Of a stretch of 52,856 nucleotides of DNA, positions 32,737 through 44,198 are shown in pieces (positions within the stretch are counted from its first letter, which is position 1; the number at the start of each line of letters is the position of its first letter). Position numbers and translations under genes: made by a program. The DNA comes from a virus. The notes under the pieces are model-generated. The model worked only from the letters and a program-made list of their open reading frames with translations, did not search any database and was not told the origin of the DNA. The stretch is from positions 1 to 52,856 of the IMG/VR virus record IMGVR_UViG_3300040751_001956; one strand, 5' to 3'.

Positions 32737-33049
32737 AATATAAGTTGTACAACTCTACCGCCTTTTTATATTCTTGTAAAGTAGCGACCAAAGGAAACGG
32801 TATTCTTAAAACAAAATTATTAGGTATCTCAAATTCGATACTTCCTGCATTAGGGTTCGCTTGTAAAATCAACCACCCAAAAACAGGACTTCCATAATAT
32901 TCCTGAGATATCTTATCTAATCTGTCCTTTCCTTTTTTGTATTGTACATACTTATCTGTCGATCTGATTGGAATCTCGATACCCGGTACTATTTTAAAGT
33001 CACCATCAGTCTCGAAAAACTCGTATCTGTTGAAATATTCTCTACTCAT
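32723..33049 (-). CDS. 53: Baseplate protein, gp53/LysM-like, 108 aa
   Basis: The core YKKGKDRLDKISQEYYGSPV followed by FGWLILQANPN matches the LysM-like fold of gp53 and tail protein X families, where D-x-L-x-x-I-x-x-x-Y-Y-G precedes a W-x-L-I-x-x-x-N. These proteins clamp hub or wedge components in contractile tails (established for T4 gp53). It is shorter than T4 gp53 (196 aa). ATGA overlap with the upstream 1571-aa gene and 14-nt overlap with the downstream hub-like gene indicate a tightly coupled baseplate operon. Confidence 0.8.
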   Translation of the reverse strand: MSREYFNRYEFFETDGDFKIVPGIEIPIRSTDKYVQYKKGKDRLDKISQEYYGSPVFGWLILQANPNAGSIEFEIPNNFVLRIPFPLVATLQEYKKAVELYNLYYGED

Positions 33050-36000
33050 GGTTTATAGAAATTTAGTTTAGTACCAAGTGTTACTTTACTTGAATGTACT
33101 TTTATCAATTCATCAAGTTGTGTGGATGGTGATGATATTTCAATCTCTTCCACTACACCGAAGTTCGATGGAGATTCATTCTTTTTAGGTTTAAACTTCT
33201 TAAGTCTAATCCTCTCTTCTTTTGTTTCTTCAAAGAAGTTATCGATTTTCTTAGAGATTTTGTTAAAAATCTTTTGTGGGAATATCGTTGTATCTTCTTT
33301 ATAAATGTTCTTAATCTCCTCCTCTTTTCCGTATAATAATACAGATAAAATTTCACTTAGTGTAGTGATGCCCATATTCCCAAGTGAAGTAAAATCTACT
33401 GATGTATCTAAGTCTTTTTCGAACTCGTCATAATTTTTATCGAAGTAGTCAATTATGTGATCATATTGTTCATATAAAGAACTGAAAGTAAATCCTGATA
33501 AATCCGCTTGTGTCCCGTTACCATCATCAATTTTACCATCACTAACGTATTTTGTGAGGTAGTTTAGTTTATCTAAACTCGATATAATTTTATTTCTTTT
33601 AGAAGCGAGATCTTTTAAAGATGATAATGAGATTAATTCATCTAACTTACTCTCAACCAACTCAGTTAATTTTTCCCTTAAGATGTAGTTTGATCTTTCC
33701 AACTTATCCGATGAAAGGAACCTGTCAAATTTCATCATAGTGGAAACATCCAAATCATTAATTGCGGCATTAAGTTTTGCTTTGGTGTCGTTAACCATGA
33801 AATCAAAACTGTTCCTTATTGGATCAAATTCACCAAACATAGTTATCTCTCTCGTGCTTGTATTTGTTGTGTACACATCATACTTGTTTATAGACCTGTA
33901 GTTAGGTGAAAAAACTAATGAGTGTACTTGTGGTCCAAAAGATGTTAAAACGTCGTTATATGTCGTCTTATAGGTTTCAAAGTATCCCTCGACATCATCC
34001 AAAGATGAAATGAGTTCTCCGTAAGAAAGTTCCTCTCCCGATCCACCTATGTATTTTCCTTGTGTTATTTCGTTTTCACTTCCTATTTGTTGTTGGTTGG
34101 GTGTTTGACTTGACGGTCCGGCCTTCTGTAAACTCTCTAAAAATTCTTTAGTAAATTCTGCTGCGTCTTGACCGTCAATTGTACTATTGGTACTTACAGA
34201 TCTTGGGTCATACATTTCTGTGTTTGCGAAGAAATTAGATGATAATGCATTCTGTAATCTCTCAACAGGTTTTTCAAGTCCTTGACCACCAATAAAGTTA
34301 ACTTGCATCGTAACATTTGCAATCATTGGTTGTACCCCAATACCTTCAGGATTCATATCCCATACACCATCATCGTAATTGATGTTTACGTCTCTTACAA
34401 CAATTTTGGAGTGATAGAAATCACCAATCCTTACCACACAAATTGGTGGTGGTCCAAAACTTGTATTCCTCGCGTTTATGTCATTATTATCCGCAATACC
34501 TTTTAATGGTATAGTATCACCCGGTCTAACACATTGTAATAAGAAAGTTAGTCTTGAGTTAAGACCTTCAGGTGTTGTTGAGTGAAATGCGGGGTGAAAA
34601 TATTTTAATTTCTCTGTTAAACTTTTAAATGTTACGGGTGAATCTTCCTCCATTACTTTGAAATAGTAACACTCAGACAATGTCTTCATGATTATCTTTT
34701 TCATTTCATCGATACGAGGTTTCTGTTTCGGTGGTGTGATTGGATCGGGAGTTACCTTAACTCTAATCTTATTTTCAATATCAGGTATAACGTCTGCGGG
34801 TTTCACATCGAACTGAACTATCCCGTGTCTACAGTAGAATGTGGGTGGTGCAGTTCTTTTTAGTGGGCTATTTGATTGGATTTCATCTGTGTGACAATCA
34901 ATGTTAACATCTCCACCACCAAATGTACTTTCATTGGTAGTTGCATTTTCTCCCACACCCTTATATAGTACACTTAAAGACCCTTCCACGCCTTCGTATC
35001 CAAGTTTCTCAAACGTATATGTCGTACCCCCCGATACCACTTCAGTACCTGAGGGTGGTGTTGTGGTAGTAAAATCAATATCAGTTGTTTTTTTAGCTAT
35101 CCTACTTACAACATCTTTATATATACTATGTGCCCTCCTAAGTGATAATTTTACGTTATAGTCATCTCCCGCGATTGAAGAGGTGCTCGAAAATATTTGT
35201 ACCTTAATATCTTTAATTTCACCTTTCTCTATCCTTGAAACAAGTTCGTCTGTTTTATCTGTATAACTCTTATAATCCTTTTTTAAAGTATTGTATGCAC
35301 TTTCGATTTTACTTTTAACGAGTTGATAATCGTCTGTTGTTCCTGTAACGTCAGTTCTACCAAATATTACCTTTTTATCGTTTTTCTTGGTGGCCGTTTC
35401 ACTACCCGAGAAAAGAAGATTTAAACCATTATCTAAATCTTTAAAATATGTCCCATTAGATTGGTCAATGTTGCCATTCCCATCCTCAAACATATTTTTA
35501 TAATTTTCATATTCCTGTTCGTATGTTGTTGGTGATTGAACCTGACTATTCCCTATCCTTGGGAAATCATTAGGGAAATATAAGTTCATTTTAACAGGTG
35601 CCTCTTTTGGTTGTGGTTGTGGACTCGTATCGGGTTTTTCTTCACCCAAATCTTCCGTTTCAATTTTGTATTTTAAAATCTCTTCTTGATCATTACCACC
35701 CTCTAACCATCTTTTAATACTACTAAGGTCGTCTTTTGTTAAAGTGGTATATGTTCTAATTAAAGAATAAAAATCCACCTCCTCACATCCCGCGAAGAAC
35801 GCATTAATGTAGTTTTCCGATTCTTCATCGGACATTCCTTTGAATACTTTTTGTACCAATAAGTTTAATATACTTGGGTGATCGACAACCACTTTAAAGG
35901 ATATCTGACCCGACCTCTCTGTTTGTTGATAGGTATATATCGGTTCAGGTCTTCCTAAAAATGTATTTGTTTCCCATCTCGCATTGTTCTGTTCATTTAC

Positions 36001-37761
36001 TTTAATGTCGTATGGTGGGAACCACATTACTCTACCACCATTAGGTCCTCTTTCACAATATGGTAAATCACTATATGTATAACCCGGTAGTGTTGATGTC
36101 TTCCACGCTAAATTCTCAATAGAGAACATGTATTTTTTAGCAACATAGGAATCACCTTGTTTAACAATATTTGTCGATCCCTCGAAAGAACCTTGACCAT
36201 TGGACATTGGTGCAATGTTTAGGTTCCATGGTTTTGTCATTACACTCGAATCGAACTTCCTAATATTACCCGTTCTCTTCATTGTGTCAGACATATTCAT
36301 ATATGGATCATCTTTTGTCCAAACCCTACAATATTCAACACCCGTTTCTTGACCATATTTATCAACATACTTGACCGCAGAACCTCGAGATATCATTGTA
36401 TTACCCTCTCTAAAAATTCTACTCGTTTGATCAATTGCGTTTGCAACGTGTGATCTTGCGGCACCACCATCAGATGGCATAGTCTCAATTAACTCTTGGG
36501 TTTTACCCATGATAGAATCACTTCTGAAATTGTATCTTGTGGAGAGACTATCTTCTAATTGAGATCTTTCAAAATTATATTCCGCATTACCCTCACCTAA
36601 TTTATTTTGTGATTTGGTGCTGTACCATGTTAAATTACCACCTATAGGTCCTCCCTGAGTGATCGGTCTTTGTCTTTCAAATAACTGAGTCTGAACAGGA
36701 TCAAACATTAAACTTAGATAGTAACTACTTCTTACGATGTTGTCGTTGAAGTCCCCCATCGCATATTTAACGTCTTCACCTCTATCATCACCTATATACG
36801 CCCCTTGAGTTGGTGCACCTAAACCAAGAACGTCGTTTATCGCATCCCCAACTACATTAGGGAAGTTAAATAGTTTTGATGATTGTTGTGACCTTGCTGA
36901 TTTGGAATAGTCAGGTGCATATCTTGAGAATCTTAAATTATCAAATAAAACATCTTTTTGTCCTGAACCCATATAATCTATCATTAGATCAGATGGTTTA
37001 GCACTCAATTTAGGTCTTCTTTGGATACCAATTAATGAACCTAATACCCCTGTAATGTCTTGTATAATTTGTCCCGCGGTTGTTTGTGCCTCGGGCCTAT
37101 AATTGACAGGATTTGCGGGATTGCTTAAATAATCACCCGGTATTTCACTCCACGGGAATTCAACCCCCGCAACTGTTTGTAAAAAATCAATTGCCTTTCC
37201 GGGTAGGGTTTTCGCAACTGTAATCTTATAGTTCTTTTCTACTAAACTTTCTTTACCTGTGATAAGGTTTATTGCCGTTGCGGTATTACCTTCTAACGCA
37301 TCTATAAGTCTTACTCTACCGTAAGTTGCTGCGACTAAATTCTGTGTAATTCTTGCAAGTACGGGTCCTTGTTCGTTTTCCCTAATGTGTCTTGCTGCGA
37401 ACTTCATCATATTTGACTCCTGATCATAGTTGTCAGTAGTCATAATACTAATGAAATTACCATATGAACCTTGTGTGAAATAAGGATACAAACCAAGATC
37501 CTCAAGTCGAGTTAAATCTCTTAATGTTTCAACTGTGTCGAAATTGTCTGCAGTAAAAGTGTTCCTTGTATCGGGAATTGCAAGATATGTTTGTAAGTTA
37601 GTATCTACCTCACCGGGATCAATATTGGGTTGATCTCTTAGGTTTTCTACAGAGTATGCCGAAGACGTAAATGTTTGGGGACCGTTTGGTTGTTGTAACG
37701 TCCTTGCCAATATACTGTCCCTAAACTGTGACGTTGAATTGAAATCTAAATAACTCGGCAT
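33046..37761 (-). CDS. Giant tail-tube cap/baseplate protein with OmpA-like motif, 1571 aa
   Basis: Residues about 505-660 contain AKKYMFSIENLAWKTSTLPG, GGRVMWFPPYDIKVNEQ and FLGRPEPIYTYQQTERSGQI then SFKVVVDHPSI, a tube-like domain resembling gp48/gp54-type tube initiators. Residues about 850-885 (VQIFSSTSSIAGDDYNVKLS then LRRAHSIYKDVVSRI) look like an OmpA-C peptidoglycan-binding signature (Y-N-x-x-L-S-x-x-R-A). The C-terminal third is coiled-coil-like and charged, ending KVTLGTKLNFYKP. It follows the tape measure gene as gp48/54 do in T4. Octamer TATTTATA ends 13 nt upstream. Confidence 0.75.
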   Translation of the reverse strand: MPSYLDFNSTSQFRDSILARTLQQPNGPQTFTSSAYSVENLRDQPNIDPGEVDTNLQTYLAIPDTRNTFTADNFDTVETLRDLTRLEDLGLYPYFTQGSYGNFISIMTTDNYDQESNMMKFAARHIRENEQGPVLARITQNLVAATYGRVRLIDALEGNTATAINLITGKESLVEKNYKITVAKTLPGKAIDFLQTVAGVEFPWSEIPGDYLSNPANPVNYRPEAQTTAGQIIQDITGVLGSLIGIQRRPKLSAKPSDLMIDYMGSGQKDVLFDNLRFSRYAPDYSKSARSQQSSKLFNFPNVVGDAINDVLGLGAPTQGAYIGDDRGEDVKYAMGDFNDNIVRSSYYLSLMFDPVQTQLFERQRPITQGGPIGGNLTWYSTKSQNKLGEGNAEYNFERSQLEDSLSTRYNFRSDSIMGKTQELIETMPSDGGAARSHVANAIDQTSRIFREGNTMISRGSAVKYVDKYGQETGVEYCRVWTKDDPYMNMSDTMKRTGNIRKFDSSVMTKPWNLNIAPMSNGQGSFEGSTNIVKQGDSYVAKKYMFSIENLAWKTSTLPGYTYSDLPYCERGPNGGRVMWFPPYDIKVNEQNNARWETNTFLGRPEPIYTYQQTERSGQISFKVVVDHPSILNLLVQKVFKGMSDEESENYINAFFAGCEEVDFYSLIRTYTTLTKDDLSSIKRWLEGGNDQEEILKYKIETEDLGEEKPDTSPQPQPKEAPVKMNLYFPNDFPRIGNSQVQSPTTYEQEYENYKNMFEDGNGNIDQSNGTYFKDLDNGLNLLFSGSETATKKNDKKVIFGRTDVTGTTDDYQLVKSKIESAYNTLKKDYKSYTDKTDELVSRIEKGEIKDIKVQIFSSTSSIAGDDYNVKLSLRRAHSIYKDVVSRIAKKTTDIDFTTTTPPSGTEVVSGGTTYTFEKLGYEGVEGSLSVLYKGVGENATTNESTFGGGDVNIDCHTDEIQSNSPLKRTAPPTFYCRHGIVQFDVKPADVIPDIENKIRVKVTPDPITPPKQKPRIDEMKKIIMKTLSECYYFKVMEEDSPVTFKSLTEKLKYFHPAFHSTTPEGLNSRLTFLLQCVRPGDTIPLKGIADNNDINARNTSFGPPPICVVRIGDFYHSKIVVRDVNINYDDGVWDMNPEGIGVQPMIANVTMQVNFIGGQGLEKPVERLQNALSSNFFANTEMYDPRSVSTNSTIDGQDAAEFTKEFLESLQKAGPSSQTPNQQQIGSENEITQGKYIGGSGEELSYGELISSLDDVEGYFETYKTTYNDVLTSFGPQVHSLVFSPNYRSINKYDVYTTNTSTREITMFGEFDPIRNSFDFMVNDTKAKLNAAINDLDVSTMMKFDRFLSSDKLERSNYILREKLTELVESKLDELISLSSLKDLASKRNKIISSLDKLNYLTKYVSDGKIDDGNGTQADLSGFTFSSLYEQYDHIIDYFDKNYDEFEKDLDTSVDFTSLGNMGITTLSEILSVLLYGKEEEIKNIYKEDTTIFPQKIFNKISKKIDNFFEETKEERIRLKKFKPKKNESPSNFGVVEEIEISSPSTQLDELIKVHSSKVTLGTKLNFYKP

Positions 37762-37803: not shown

Positions 37804-39624
37804 TTAATTATTTGATGTATATGACCTACTATTGTCAACTATCCACTGTTCAGGATTTAATGTCCATTGTTTTTGGAAAGAACCTACGACTTGGTCACTT
37901 TTTACATTGTGTTCATGGATAACCTTCGTTGTTGTTTGAGTTGTTGTTCCCTGAACTTGTTTTCTTCTTTCTTCTTGTTCTTTTATTTGTTCAGTGGTCC
38001 CTAATTTATCTTGGATTTTTCGAATCACCGCACTTCCTTCAAGACCAAAACTCTCTACTAATTTATCAGTACTCATACCAATAATATCACTTATGTTTTG
38101 TCCCGTGTCCTTCGCATCTATCCCAACTAACTTTTCAATTTGATTGTCCGCAACACCCGCAGCCCTTAGTCTCGCTAAGGTTACTAAGTAATTAACATCT
38201 CTATTAATGTTCTCAACCGCGGTTGCTTGTCTTCTAACAATTTCACCTTCGGACATTTGTTTAAACTCGTCTTGGTATTTGAGTAGTGTTTTAGCAACAC
38301 TTTGATCGATCTTATCTAATGATATTGCAGTTGCACCCCCAAACTGTTTTTGTAATTCAGGACTTGTAAGTGCAATACTCATCTTACCGTCCTTCATTCT
38401 GGCGATGTTGGTTAAGAATTCTTCTTGTTCCTCACTTAACCCTAAACCTGACATCATCTGACTCGCTTGCATTCTTTCCTGTTGTGCGATTGCGGTCTGA
38501 GTAAGGTCTTTGACATCCATATTCAACGCTTTCGCAATATCCCTTGCTTGTCTAAGGTTCGCCCCCGTCACTTCGAACGCACCGGTCTCAGTATTATAGG
38601 TTGCTAAATTTTTGGAAACCCCTTCTAATGCACCTTGTAATCCCTCAACCTCATTGGTTGCCATATACATTAACCTAAGCGGATCGTTAAAATCACCAAA
38701 GGCGGCACCTAAAACTTGTAGGTTTGCAGATAGTTCTAACGCACCTTCGGGATCAAATACCTGATCGGCCACTTTAAATACATCTTGTAGGTTCATTCTA
38801 ACCTCAGTGGCCCTACGAACCATCTTTTCTAACCCCTCAACACTATTTTGGAATCCGTACTGATTTAATTTTTCTATATTTTCACTAATACCCTTAATAG
38901 TGGTTTTAGATTGGAGTCCTAATTCTAATGATCTCTCACCCGCATCTGCGATAGATTCTTGTGCCTGTGATGCCCCTATACCAACCTTTTCAAATTCTGA
39001 ATATGAACTAACAATTTCTGCCATATCCATACCGTAGGCTTGTGCTATTTCACCCGCACGTACTAACATATCAGCACCAACTAAGGCAAACCTACCTGTG
39101 GTGTCCACTAATTCTTTTGCCGAGTCAACTAATTCATCAAAAGGGATTCCTAACCTTATAAGTGCGGGTTGGGCTCTTGTGATTTCTTCTCTAAACTCTT
39201 CTGATAGTGTCCCTGTTAGACCTAACTTTTCATTAACTTCAGTTAATAGGTAACTTTGTTCCGCGGCGTAGTCAGCAACCGCCTTAGTTCCAAGTTCCGC
39301 AAGGACAGTACCGATTTTCTCTATTATATTACCACTCTTCTGAGTAGTTATAGCATTTACGGTGTCCATTAGATAATCAGGACCTTGGGGTGCTGATGTT
39401 TGTCTGAGACCTCCTTTTAATATGTTACCGAACCCTTCCATGAGAGTCTCCCCAAACCCTTTACCAAGGTTATTATTTGAATTACCACTACTACCACTAC
39501 CACCACTATCGTTTTGGTTTGATAGTTTTTGTATGATATTCTTATTACTTCGTTTCCACGAATCGTAATCTGCGGCGTCTCCGCCGGTGGATTCATAAAG
39601 TTTCCTTAGATCTCTCTCATTCAT
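37804..39624 (-). CDS. 29: Tape measure protein (gp29-like), 606 aa
   Basis: Sets tail length and is packed inside the tube. The protein is almost wholly helical with repeated Ala/Leu/Gln-rich heptad-like stretches (for example IIEKIGTVLAELGTKAVADY, MDMAEIVSSYSEFEKVGIGA and LEGVSKNLATYNTETGAFEV), typical of phage tape measures. A Gly/Ser/Asn-rich linker is at residues 40-55. T4 gp29 is 590 aa, so length agrees with a T4-like tail. It lies directly after the gp26-like gene and its frameshift extension, which is where tape measures lie relative to tail chaperones in most tailed phages. Octamer TATTTATA ends 4 nt upstream of the ATG. Confidence 0.82.
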   Translation of the reverse strand: MNERDLRKLYESTGGDAADYDSWKRSNKNIIQKLSNQNDSGGSGSSGNSNNNLGKGFGETLMEGFGNILKGGLRQTSAPQGPDYLMDTVNAITTQKSGNIIEKIGTVLAELGTKAVADYAAEQSYLLTEVNEKLGLTGTLSEEFREEITRAQPALIRLGIPFDELVDSAKELVDTTGRFALVGADMLVRAGEIAQAYGMDMAEIVSSYSEFEKVGIGASQAQESIADAGERSLELGLQSKTTIKGISENIEKLNQYGFQNSVEGLEKMVRRATEVRMNLQDVFKVADQVFDPEGALELSANLQVLGAAFGDFNDPLRLMYMATNEVEGLQGALEGVSKNLATYNTETGAFEVTGANLRQARDIAKALNMDVKDLTQTAIAQQERMQASQMMSGLGLSEEQEEFLTNIARMKDGKMSIALTSPELQKQFGGATAISLDKIDQSVAKTLLKYQDEFKQMSEGEIVRRQATAVENINRDVNYLVTLARLRAAGVADNQIEKLVGIDAKDTGQNISDIIGMSTDKLVESFGLEGSAVIRKIQDKLGTTEQIKEQEERRKQVQGTTTQTTTKVIHEHNVKSDQVVGSFQKQWTLNPEQWIVDNSRSYTSNN

Positions 39625-39637: not shown

Positions 39638-39790
39638 CTAATCAGAAGGTTTTTCCAACTCGATAATTCGTTCTACATAGTATCTCCTTAAATAAGTGGG
39701 CATCTCAAGAACATCCCTGTGGGTAAACCCCTTTTTAACTAAGAAAATGATTTCAGTATACTGCGCGCTTTTATAGTCCGTAGAAAGGGC
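39638..39790 (-). CDS. 50-residue +1-frame extension of the gp26-like gene (candidate tail assembly chaperone by frameshift)
   Basis: After the slip site TTT-TTT-CGC (plus 39797-39789) the +1 frame is open for 50 codons to TAG at 39640-39638. It encodes ALSTDYKSAQ, then EIIFLVKKGFTHRDVLEMPT and YLRRYYVERIIELEKPSD. The 'G-x-x-x-x-D-V-x-x-M-P-x-Y-L-R-R-Y-Y' pattern is like small gp51-type or tail-chaperone proteins of T4-like phages (my recognition). The frame has no ATG except an internal one that would leave 21 residues. tRNA-Phe on TTT can re-pair with TTC one base on, and the next zero-frame codon, CGC, looked rare: I met none in the parts of the giant gene I translated. The fused product would be 296 aa. 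Confidence 0.6.
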   Translation of the reverse strand, partial: ALSTDYKSAQYTEIIFLVKKGFTHRDVLEMPTYLRRYYVERIIELEKPSD

Positions 39791-40529
39791 GAAAAAAGTC
39801 AACCCCAAAGTCGATTCTAAAAGTGACTTGTTCTCCTGACGGGGCTATAACTTGTTGTGTCAAATCGACACCGGGTTTGTTATCTGCAATATATTTCCTG
39901 AATTTTTGAGAATCAAGAATAGGTAATGTTTCGATAAAGTTCCTAATGTTCATAGGATCAGGATTACCCGCAACAGATTTAATTAATTTTTCCAATCTCT
40001 TCGTTACGATTGGTGGGTTTCCTAAACCATTCCAATTCCTTTCTATCAGACTTAATTCTTCTTCGTCTTTATTGGATAGAAAATTGAAGGTAACATCGAC
40101 ACCCGATTTTTCCATTCTATATGGATAATCACCATTCTCGTCTTCTTTGAGGTTGAATTCTTTATATGTTAATTCAGACAAGTCAACTGTATGTTCAAAA
40201 ACCTCCTCCGTTTTAGGATCTTTAAGACTTAATTTAAGTTCAGGTCCAAATGCGGTGTTCCTTAAAAAAATTAAGATTGCTTGTTGATCTTCTACGGTTA
40301 ATTCCTCTACAGGAACTTCTTTAGTAAGAATCTTTCTTTTAAGTAATTCAGTAATCACATCCCCCTTTGCAACCAAGTTTGGTGAGGATAAGATGTTCTC
40401 ATCCGCAGCAGTTAGGTACGCAACCTTAAGTGCCTTGGTTTTTGAAGGGTACATAAGTCCCCTACTTGGTAATTCAACTACATCATATGCAATTGTTGGG
40501 TCTATCCCATATTGAGGTCTGTCTTCCAT
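39771..40529 (-). CDS. 26: gp26-like baseplate hub / tail chaperone protein, 252 aa
   Basis: The start VELPSRGLMYPSKTKALKVA, then YLTAADENILSSPNLVAKGD, follows the 'L-P-S-x-G-x-x-Y ... T-A-x-x-E-x-I-L' pattern of T4_baseplate/gp26-like proteins of T4-type phages. These sit just before the tape measure, where lambda-type phages encode chaperone G. The zero frame ends RPFYGL and stops at TAA 39771; a frameshift six codons earlier would replace those residues with a 50-residue tail. The gene follows a terminator after the tube gene; its leader contains only an imperfect octamer (GATATTTAATG). Confidence 0.8.
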   Translation of the reverse strand: MEDRPQYGIDPTIAYDVVELPSRGLMYPSKTKALKVAYLTAADENILSSPNLVAKGDVITELLKRKILTKEVPVEELTVEDQQAILIFLRNTAFGPELKLSLKDPKTEEVFEHTVDLSELTYKEFNLKEDENGDYPYRMEKSGVDVTFNFLSNKDEEELSLIERNWNGLGNPPIVTKRLEKLIKSVAGNPDPMNIRNFIETLPILDSQKFRKYIADNKPGVDLTQQVIAPSGEQVTFRIDFGVDFFRPFYGL

Positions 40530-40633: not shown

Positions 40634-41122
40634 TTAGTAAACTTGGATACATCTATCCATTCTCAATGTACAATCGATAGTTGCAAGTGCATCGTTGTTG
40701 TAATCTAATTCGTTGAAGTTCAAATCAGTGATAAATGTTCCTTGTAGAATCCATTTTTCAACTACAACACCTGTTGGGTCTAACATTTCCAACTCAATGT
40801 CTTTCTTGTAACCCGCAGCGTAACCCATTCTACCTGTTACAGACTCTGCGTGTAGTCTGAACCACTCCATCAACGCTTGAGATGCTGAAGGACCAATTGG
40901 ATCTTTGAATTTAACTCTTAATTCATTCCAAACGAATCTACCTGCAACGTAAGTTGATGTATTTAGGAAAGGAATTTCAACAGAGTTGATTTTTGCACTC
41001 GGTCTTGCTGCCGAAGTAACATACCATTCGTTGATACCCAAACTTGAAGGGAATCTAACGATAAATCGGTTAACTCTTTTCGGTTCATAAGGAACCGGCA
41101 TTTTCATTAATAAATCTGCCAT
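40634..41122 (-). CDS. 19: Tail tube protein, gp19-like, 162 aa
   Basis: Main tube subunit. Length equals T4 gp19 (163 aa). Visible: the N-terminal PVPYEPKRVNRFIVRFPSSL, the central SAKINSVEIPFLNTSTYVAG, the 'W-N-E-L-R-V-K-F-K-D-P' strand followed by ASQALMEWFRLHAESVTGRM, and the C-terminal FITDLNFNELDYNNDALATI. All are typical of the gp19/T4-tube family as I know it. The gene stands alone: a TATTTATA octamer 33 nt upstream and a terminator directly downstream, fitting a highly expressed single-gene unit. Confidence 0.93.
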   Translation of the reverse strand: MADLLMKMPVPYEPKRVNRFIVRFPSSLGINEWYVTSAARPSAKINSVEIPFLNTSTYVAGRFVWNELRVKFKDPIGPSASQALMEWFRLHAESVTGRMGYAAGYKKDIELEMLDPTGVVVEKWILQGTFITDLNFNELDYNNDALATIDCTLRMDRCIQVY

Positions 41123-41375: not shown

Positions 41376-44198
41376 TTAGATGTTCTCGAATGATGCACCT
41401 GTTGGTGTTATCAAGAATTCTACATCAATAAATTCCAATGATCTTGTTGGTTTGACATAAATCTTACCTCTTAGTGTATTTGCATCAATATCCTCAGGAT
41501 CGTTTGATACAGTTACTCGGAATTCGTATAAACCTCTCTCTTTCTTAATTGATTCAAGAATTGGATTTACCAATCTTAAGAACTCATTTCTTACTTGTTC
41601 GTCGTTTTGTTCGAATAATAATCTTACCGCGACTGCCGAAATAAGTTTTCTTGCTCTTAATAACAATCTTCTTACGTTAATTCTATCAAGTGCCGATTCT
41701 CTAACCTGTAAGGTTTTGTTACCCCAAATGATAGTACCCGTATCTGAGAATGTTGCGATTGGGTTAATTCTTGCTTTGTATAGATCATCTCTATTATCCA
41801 AAGTAAGTTTCTTCTTCGCTTTAATTGCGTTTACTAAACCTCTTTGGTAACCCGCTACTGCGAACCAAGGATAAGAAACGTTATCGGTCAATGCGATATT
41901 CTTAACAACTTCACCTGTAGGTGGGATGTATAATTGAGTTGCATTATCCCCATCTCTTACTTGGATCCAAGGCCAATAGGTTGCTGTATAGTTAGTATCT
42001 AAATCAACAGTGTCTAACTGATCAATAATTTCATCAACATCTGACGTGTTAGGTGCGTTTACAATATATAATGAATCCGCTCTATCACCTTCAACCATAT
42101 CGATTGCCTGATTAACCAATGAACTGTGGTTATAGAAATCAATACCCGGTGTTGCGAAGATGTTAATATCTACTGATTCAGGGTTAGAGAATGTTTCAAT
42201 TGCCTGTAAGTATGCGTAGTAATCTGAATTACCCACTGCAGAACTGAATACACCACCGTTGGTTGTGTGTCCACTTACATAAGTGTTCTTACCGAAAATG
42301 TGACCATCTCCATTAGTTCTTGTACCTCTGTAGATATCCCATCCATCGAAACCACCACATACTGCCAATGTGAACTTTCTAAATGATTTTGAATCTAATT
42401 TTCCTTTATCCGCACCTTCTAAATCGTAAGGTGTTGTCTTATAACCTGTCGGTGCATTAACTGATAAGTGGAATCCATGTGAAGTTTGAGACGCCGCATT
42501 TCCTTTATAGTGGAATAAATCAGAATCCAAACCAATTTGACTTGATAAACCTAAAGTTACCTTTCTTACTTTATCACCGTTTGTTAATTCAGGTTCACCT
42601 AAAGAAGAGTACCCAATAACATCACCCGCATCATTGTATTTGGTTTTATATAATATATTACCAATCTTACTTGTACCTAAAAGATCTGAAGTAAATCCTT
42701 TAAATCCAGCAGGGAATGCATCTACAGGGTGATCTTCCGCTAAGTTCAACATAATATATTTAGATCTTAGTTCGTATTCACCATCTGATGTACCAATCTT
42801 TCTACCAATGTACCCCGGTAAATCAGGATTCATTGAACATCTTGAGAACTTCTCAAGTACTGACATATTATCATCAGTGTCATTGAAATCTCTAACGATT
42901 AAATCAAATTCGCCCGTTTCAATATCAATGTTTTGGATTTGTATTTTTACTTGATTGTTTGCTGCGTCACCGTCAGAAATACTTACGATACTAAATAGAT
43001 CTGAAACAGTACCACCTCTCACTTCCGATACGATGGTTGGTGATGCGGGGGTATCCCACTGATTTAAGAAGTCATTGTCGACATCGTGATACACAACATC
43101 AGTAGATAAACCTCTTACTAAACCTAAATCGTGTAAAGATTTTAATAGGTTAGGGTATTCCTCGAATACATAAACAGGGAATTCACCTTTTTTCTTATCA
43201 AAAACATCACTACCCAATACTTTAGATACATACTTTGTTGATGAAACATCTAAAGAACATGTGAATGTTTTAGAACCACTTGTTGATCCAACCGCAGTTA
43301 ATGTGAATTCACCAAGAGGATTAGATCCGATTTCAGTAGATGAAATAGTTATATCGGTATTGCCCGTAACTTCAAGTTCTAATGATTCACCATCATACGA
43401 ACCTCTCGATCTTAATGCCAATACAATCATATTGTCATAGTCGGCGTTTACTTCCGCAGACCACTCATATTGTGAAATGTCCCATCCATTATTTGCTGTG
43501 CTCCACACAAACAAGTATGAATAAACACCATCTATATTTCCTAAACCATCCTCCTTAAAGAATGTGTTGTACCAATTATTATTTGAGTTACTACCAATAG
43601 GTCCTGTGATTTGTAATGAGTCGGTTAATGATGCAGTATCATTCCCATCTACATGACCGATTGTGAACCATGTTCCGTCTTGTACCGTTAATCCTGTTAT
43701 AAAATCAGGGATTGATGTACCGTCGTTTGCTGTTTTGTCAGATAAATCATTGTAGAATGCTGACCCTGCGATACTTAAATCCGTGTTCGCGTTTGGTGTA
43801 GCACCTGATAAACTGTTAACCTGTGAATTAGTTAACGTATCTAAATCTACAGTAATTCCTCCTAATGTTTTAATCCCGAAAGTTTTTAGTGGTTTATATC
43901 CTGTTAAACCTAAAACTCTCGTTACGAAAAGTTGATTTGATTCTTGTAGGTATGATTTTGCAACATATCCTAATTCATATTTAGGGTTACCATCTGAAAA
44001 TTTTACAGGGGAGGTAGGACCAAAATAGGTTTTGAATTCATCAAAATTTCTTATTAGAATTGGTTCAAATGCGGGTCCTTGAATAGTTTCACCCGCCAAA
44101 CCTAAGGTAGTTACACCTACACTTTGAGCTACGAACGTTAGATCCTTCTCTGATGTATACACACCCGGAGAAACGAATACTCTGTTTGAATTTGCCAT
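41376..44198 (-). CDS. 18: Tail sheath protein, gp18-like, 940 aa
   Basis: Contractile sheath subunit. The N-terminus VFVSPGVYTSEKDLTFVAQS and the C-terminal region (LDRINVRRLLLRARKLISAV, then RGLYEFRVTVSNDPEDIDAN and KPTRSLEFIDVEFLITPTGA) are diagnostic of the sheath family. At 940 aa it is far longer than T4 gp18 (659 aa); the extra length lies in the middle (about residues 100-600), where surface-exposed beta domains are usually inserted. Octamer TATTTATA ends 34 nt upstream; the next gene downstream is the tube, as expected. Confidence 0.95.
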   Translation of the reverse strand: MANSNRVFVSPGVYTSEKDLTFVAQSVGVTTLGLAGETIQGPAFEPILIRNFDEFKTYFGPTSPVKFSDGNPKYELGYVAKSYLQESNQLFVTRVLGLTGYKPLKTFGIKTLGGITVDLDTLTNSQVNSLSGATPNANTDLSIAGSAFYNDLSDKTANDGTSIPDFITGLTVQDGTWFTIGHVDGNDTASLTDSLQITGPIGSNSNNNWYNTFFKEDGLGNIDGVYSYLFVWSTANNGWDISQYEWSAEVNADYDNMIVLALRSRGSYDGESLELEVTGNTDITISSTEIGSNPLGEFTLTAVGSTSGSKTFTCSLDVSSTKYVSKVLGSDVFDKKKGEFPVYVFEEYPNLLKSLHDLGLVRGLSTDVVYHDVDNDFLNQWDTPASPTIVSEVRGGTVSDLFSIVSISDGDAANNQVKIQIQNIDIETGEFDLIVRDFNDTDDNMSVLEKFSRCSMNPDLPGYIGRKIGTSDGEYELRSKYIMLNLAEDHPVDAFPAGFKGFTSDLLGTSKIGNILYKTKYNDAGDVIGYSSLGEPELTNGDKVRKVTLGLSSQIGLDSDLFHYKGNAASQTSHGFHLSVNAPTGYKTTPYDLEGADKGKLDSKSFRKFTLAVCGGFDGWDIYRGTRTNGDGHIFGKNTYVSGHTTNGGVFSSAVGNSDYYAYLQAIETFSNPESVDINIFATPGIDFYNHSSLVNQAIDMVEGDRADSLYIVNAPNTSDVDEIIDQLDTVDLDTNYTATYWPWIQVRDGDNATQLYIPPTGEVVKNIALTDNVSYPWFAVAGYQRGLVNAIKAKKKLTLDNRDDLYKARINPIATFSDTGTIIWGNKTLQVRESALDRINVRRLLLRARKLISAVAVRLLFEQNDEQVRNEFLRLVNPILESIKKERGLYEFRVTVSNDPEDIDANTLRGKIYVKPTRSLEFIDVEFLITPTGASFENI

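Follow-up and report, generated by a model that had tools for sequence, protein, structure and literature searches.

A gp26-like gene in the window (the whole stretch of viral DNA analyzed here, 52,856 nucleotides of IMG/VR record IMGVR_UViG_3300040751_001956) very likely specifies a pair of tail-assembly chaperones of the lambda G/GT kind, with the long member produced by +1 ribosomal frameshifting and with the T4 clade having swapped to gene duplication; no peptide or reporter data are available for this reading. A broader proposal, that PF12322 proteins are the lambda G/GT counterpart across T4-type phages, that the shift direction switched between +1 and -1 and that a duplication replaced the shift in the T4 clade, is considered probable.

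The gene lies on the minus strand (39771-40529), and its 252-aa product, hereafter the short form, passes the curated cut-off of the Pfam family PF12322 (T4_baseplate; 29.9 bits vs 24.5) and also matches phrog_150 (baseplate hub, E=9e-9). As read directly from the DNA, its 3′ end is GGG-GTT-GAC-TTT-TTT-CGC-CCT-TTC-TAC-GGA-CTA-TAA (zero-frame peptide ...GVDFFRPFYGL), in which the putative +1 shift site (39789-39797, minus strand) comprises TTT in the E site (39797-39795), TTT in the P site (39794-39792) and CGC in the A site (39791-39789), and the TAA that ends the short form (39771-39773, minus strand) stands seven codons past the P-site codon. The -1 frame at this site was checked and is closed. 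The +1 frame remains open from TTT_CGC for 51 codons plus a stop (the tail, or T domain; 39638-39793, minus strand; codons 39793-39641, stop 39640-39638) and encodes the peptide FALSTDYKSAQYTEIIFLVKKGFTHRDVLEMPTYLRRYYVERIIELEKPSD, so that zero frame and tail, read through a +1 shift, would give a 296-aa long form. The fusion length is as the preliminary description of this DNA had given it.

The gp26-like gene sits between a tail tube gene and an ORF in the tape measure position, as G/GT-type genes do. The upstream neighbor (40634-41122, minus strand) was identified as a gp19-like tail tube protein by phrog_4542 (E=2e-24), with its Pfam gp19 match falling under the Pfam cut-off. On the other side, a 606-aa ORF (37804-39624, minus strand) begins 13 nt past the tail end and is presumed to be the tape measure by position only: family profile searches of this ORF returned zero matches and sequence comparison with annotated tape measures revealed no similarity, while Flavobacterium phage immuto and Listeria phage LIS04 have a gene annotated as tape measure at the same position. 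The location between tube and tape measure proposed earlier thus holds by profile for the tube and by position alone for the tape measure. Further upstream, a 940-aa tail sheath protein (41376-44198, minus strand; phrog_23, E=6.5e-62; Pfam Phage_sheath_1) has a profile match limited to its C-terminal third, which leaves a large N-terminal part without assignment, and the 1571-aa ORF that follows the presumed tape measure (33046-37761) gave weak profile hits only (OmpA-like, YwqH-like).

Relatives were collected from IMG/VR, first with protein patterns placed away from the shift site (80 loci) and then with a wider search that raised the total to 159 sequences including the window, 152 of them complete at the 3′ end. 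These 152 loci are not all independent because some contigs were retrieved by both searches; around the site they comprise 76 different sequences, and 44 representatives remain at <90% nucleotide identity. Since the site peptide was among its patterns, the second search was biased toward the site; the unbiased first search (80 loci) gives the same site conservation. A P-site TTT followed by an A-site CGN was found in 152/152 loci (CGC 78, CGT 62, CGG 8, CGA 4), with the +1 frame open and the zero-frame stop seven codons beyond the P site in every one. The +1 tail is 49-52 codons long in the 44 representatives, and the short-form C-terminus RPFYG is conserved among relatives. A single uninterrupted ORF in the homologues had been named in advance as a finding that would refute frameshifting; the homologues do not have one, both frames and the site being conserved in all 152 loci, and the frameshift interpretation is supported.

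Purifying selection acts on the tail in the +1 frame only: across the 44 representatives pN/pS was 0.106 (~0.11) in this frame, with 0.12 for gp26 itself, and 1.58 and 1.51 when the same bases were read in the two wrong frames. The tail was predicted to fold as three helices (pLDDT 86.6), and an AlphaFold2 model of the 252-aa short form likewise had a pLDDT of 86.6; the two parts were modeled apart, not as the joined 296-aa protein. Neither a comparison of the tail fold with the PDB nor a PDB sequence search produced a match. An alternative is a separate small gene started from a TTG (at 39808 or the one after it) or from the internal ATG at the LEMP motif, and the in-frame TTG of the window, the 24/44 representatives in which TTG is the sole start-like codon before the site, the 3 with ATG or GTG, and the habit of annotators to begin cyanophage gp51 at an internal ATG all speak for it. 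We nevertheless regard a separate gene as very unlikely, as in 17/44 representatives the +1 frame ahead of the site contains neither ATG nor GTG nor TTG, several relatives carry TAG directly upstream in the tail frame, 0/54 cyanophage-type loci have a start codon, selection is equal before and after the internal ATG (pN/pS 0.109 vs 0.102), and the shift site itself is invariant. In the window, the start-like codons ahead of the site are TTGs only, without a convincing Shine-Dalgarno sequence. The suggestion that the tail has no usable start of its own was therefore right in substance, and no start codon is conserved among the representatives.

The A-site codon, previously described as apparently rare, is the rarest sense codon in the window (2/15,351 codons in 31 long ORFs, a count that covers the window only and not the host), and in-frame TTT_CGN occurs nowhere else in those ORFs. 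Among the representatives CGC accounts for 0/171 upstream Arg codons, yet it is the commonest A-site codon (24/44). GGG occupies codon -4 in 44/44 representatives, compared with 31/242 (13%) of upstream Gly codons. Together with the following G it forms an invariant GGGG (39803-39806, minus strand in the window), 8 nt from the P-site codon, which is a possible stimulator of unknown role. As a prfB-like Shine-Dalgarno element its spacing is a misfit (8 nt vs 3 nt), and this point was left open. No conserved stimulatory RNA structure was detected around the site (mean z -0.3 to -1.2), and there was no Rfam match.

According to the mechanism we propose, most ribosomes would terminate at TAA and release the 252-aa short form, and a minority would pause at GAC_UUU_UUU_CGC because CGC/CGU in the A site is scarce; the P-site tRNA-Phe would then re-pair from UUU to UUC and the ribosome would move +1, yielding the 296-aa form with its three-helix C-terminal tail. 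What the sequence itself shows is the gene layout, the site, selection on both reading frames, the chain of homology and the complementarity of copy number; that the shift takes place, that its direction is +1 and not -2, and in what ratio the products are made are inferences only. UUU and UUC are cognate to the same tRNA-Phe, and a rare A-site codon suits +1 movement (PMC3498833). This last property also bears on -2 slippage at the T6 run, which would reach the same frame with one extra Phe and is conceivable inasmuch as the run again offers UUU for pairing when the P site steps back by two bases. The T6 run is, however, broken in two loci that read TTC-TTT-CGC and retain both TTT_CGN and the tail (L147 and L149); at such TTC-TTT sites a -2 step would meet a mismatched UCU partner whereas the +1 step from UUU to UUC stays cognate, and we give -2 slippage little credence. 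Predicted tryptic peptides are IDFGVDFFALSTDYK for the +1 junction, IDFGVDFFFALSTDYK for the -2 junction and IDFGVDFFRPFYGL for the short form.

The broken runs equally count against transcriptional slippage, by which the U count of the mRNA would be altered on T6 and the ribosome would stay in frame. Most +1 loci do have a run of T6 or T7, but L147, L149 and Streptococcus phage GXN1 (TTC-TTT-CGT) have only T3 and retain the tail, and slippage would not require CGN to stay invariant behind the run; slippage by the polymerase is rated a shade lower than the two preceding alternatives. Finally, a sequencing error or recently broken gene, for which a single indel could account in one sequence, is already refuted by conservation, as independent contigs and isolate genomes share the layout of the 152 loci and the short-form end RPFYG is itself conserved.

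The chaperone role of the two predicted products is inferred from analogy and gene order: gene order, the short/long pair and the listing of the T4 homologues as hub chaperones all point to a lambda G/GT role. By this analogy, the tape measure would be coated with many short and few long copies, the latter recruiting tube subunits through their tail. When the short form was compared with the PDB using Foldseek, the HK97 tail assembly chaperone 2OB9 had the top listed probability (0.44, E ~1); this is not significant, and the modeled resemblance is a lead, not proof. Like lambda G/GT, the window gene lies between tube and presumed tape measure, would produce a short and a frameshift-extended protein, and carries a conserved slippery site shortly before the short reading frame ends. 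Unlike lambda, where the programmed shift is -1, the window would use +1 at UUU_CGN, and its family, PF12322, has no detected sequence link to gpG. The site itself matches the UUU_CGN +1 class of influenza A PA-X (PMC3498833) and plant amalgaviruses (PMC5052127), in which CGN is the A-site codon and P-site UUU likewise re-pairs to UUC; those sites belong to viruses of eukaryotes, whereas the window site is in a phage and has an upstream GGGG. The +1 shift of prfB also combines a slow A site with re-pairing in the P site; its slippery sequence is CUU_UGA, and an SD-like AGGGGG lies 3 nt ahead of it (PMC12421855). The prfB A site holds the stop codon UGA; that of the window holds a sense codon, with GGGG 8 nt from the P-site codon. 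If the shift is confirmed, a +1 site of the UUU_CGN type, so far from eukaryotic viruses, would be found in phages, where it is easy to dissect.

Every single-copy relative examined has a homologous tail in a shifted frame, either +1 or -1, across distant T4-type phages of Flavobacterium, Microcystis, Bacillus, Streptococcus, Synechococcus, Vibrio and Sinorhizobium, the Ackermannviridae and jumbo phages (shift sites of single isolates were read by eye). Isolates of the +1 type include Flavobacterium phage immuto (CTT_TGG), Microcystis phage Mel-JY01 (TTT_TGG), Streptococcus phage GXN1 (TTT_CGT), jumbo phage LR756508 (TTT_CTA), Listeria phage LIS04 (TTT-TTT-AGT), Bacillus phage SP-15 (TTT_CAC) and Rhodothermus phage RM378 (TTT_TGG), and they are joined by 63 distinct metagenomic loci; each of these has 62-108 extra codons, and an automatic rule assigned 61 to TTT_TGG. 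The -1 type is represented by cyanophages and Melnitz (54 distinct loci, 54/54 without a tail start codon), with sites T_TTT_TTC (21), TTA (19), TTT (13) or TTG (1), and further by Sinorhizobium phage phiN3, Stenotrophomonas phages Yut2 and RAS14, Aeromonas phage Aeh1, Vibrio phage PG216, Xanthomonas phage XacN1 and jumbo phage LR756511. An open, conserved -1 tail is also present at the end of gp26 in the Ackermannviridae Ag3 and KP6 (L335, L338) and in Vibrio phage D531 (L336). A shifted short/long pair is thus predicted in every sampled T4-related lineage except T4's own, on sequence evidence and without product data; the fusion suggested for the window is supported, and it is not peculiar to this phage. 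The sites of Ag3, KP6 and D531 read ATT_TTC or CTT_TTC, a non-standard heptamer, and their shift route is unexplained. In the jumbo phages RAS14 and XacN1 (L087, L168) the zero frame runs 10-16 codons past the Phe-Phe site, with shorter ends elsewhere; a pattern search for the XacN1 protein in viral contigs found no match.

Separate gp26 and gp51 ORFs had been taken as the T4-like norm, and this view is reversed by the comparison. In T4 there are two genes, located on opposite strands, each with its own start and without a shift, and their products are both listed as hub assembly chaperones (PMC3004832). Both match PF12322, gp51 carrying ~45 extra C-terminal residues, and judged by its sequence gp51 is a full gp26 paralogue plus tail, beyond a small partner; therefore the two-copy arrangement of the T4 clade is the exception. 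Homology of the frameshift tail to the gp51 C-terminus was reached via intermediates in a chain of hhalign tail-profile comparisons: the window tail matched group A at 99%, group A matched the cyanophage tails at 95% and these matched gp51 at 97%, controls with shuffled columns giving at most 4%. The direct match of window tail and gp51 tail is weak (7%). When the first alignment, of 17 sequences, was compared directly with T4 gp26 or gp51 by hhalign, nothing was found; Pfam profiles and intermediates succeeded.

Copy number and shifting are complementary. Two copies of PF12322 are present in T4 and its close relatives RB43, Aeromonas phage 31, PhT2 and Roth67, and one copy in the window and in 17 other phages above the cut-off, with immuto and Mel-JY01 each having one homologue under the model threshold; one-copy genomes have a shifted tail and two-copy genomes do not, no tail-like shifted ORF being found in the region after gp26 in the latter. 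In a tree, all two-copy genes fall into a single clade (96/91) next to the -1 lineages. Inside this clade the gp51 genes and 4/5 gp26 genes group together, and RB43 gp26, which sits on a long branch, has no settled place; 3 changes suffice for the three labels vs a shuffled mean of 19.6. The tree was rooted by midpoint only, and for that reason the order of frameshift first and duplication later is an inference. By this account T4 would obtain the same two products from paralogues, gp26 as the short and gp51 as the long form.

Frameshifting of tail chaperones in long-tailed phages has been described as conserved "except T4" (PMC5009743). No report of frameshifting in gp26/gp51 was found in the open-access papers, to which the search was limited; the principle is already known, and what appears to be new, as judged from this literature, is that it extends across T4-type phages, that a phage has a UUU_CGN site, that the direction changed and that duplication took its place. 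The "except T4" gap would then be closed, T4-type phages shifting too and T4 having split the function over two genes, and the family would offer a natural case of a frameshift that changed direction and was then replaced by duplication. If true, this would explain gp51, which is essential in T4 and was said in 2010 to have no known function, and would assign gp51 and gp26 a joint role that can be tested. According to Sullivan et al. 2010 (PMC3037559), a paper that does not mention frameshifting, gp51 of cyanophages and vibriophages lacks its ~200 N-terminal residues and Aeh1 has no gp51. Our analysis indicates that the "short gp51" of these phages is the -1 frame tail downstream of gp26, with the predicted shift at U_UUU_UUN where the window would shift by +1; both the "truncated" cyanophage protein and the absence in Aeh1 would be accounted for if gp51 there is the tail that frameshifting adds to gp26. 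In three relatives (L337, 3268-3399; L167, 5756-5899; L083, 4827-4937) the ORFs annotated as "gp51" or as small hypothetical ones start inside the tail, and public annotation shortens the tail because these ORFs begin at its internal codons.
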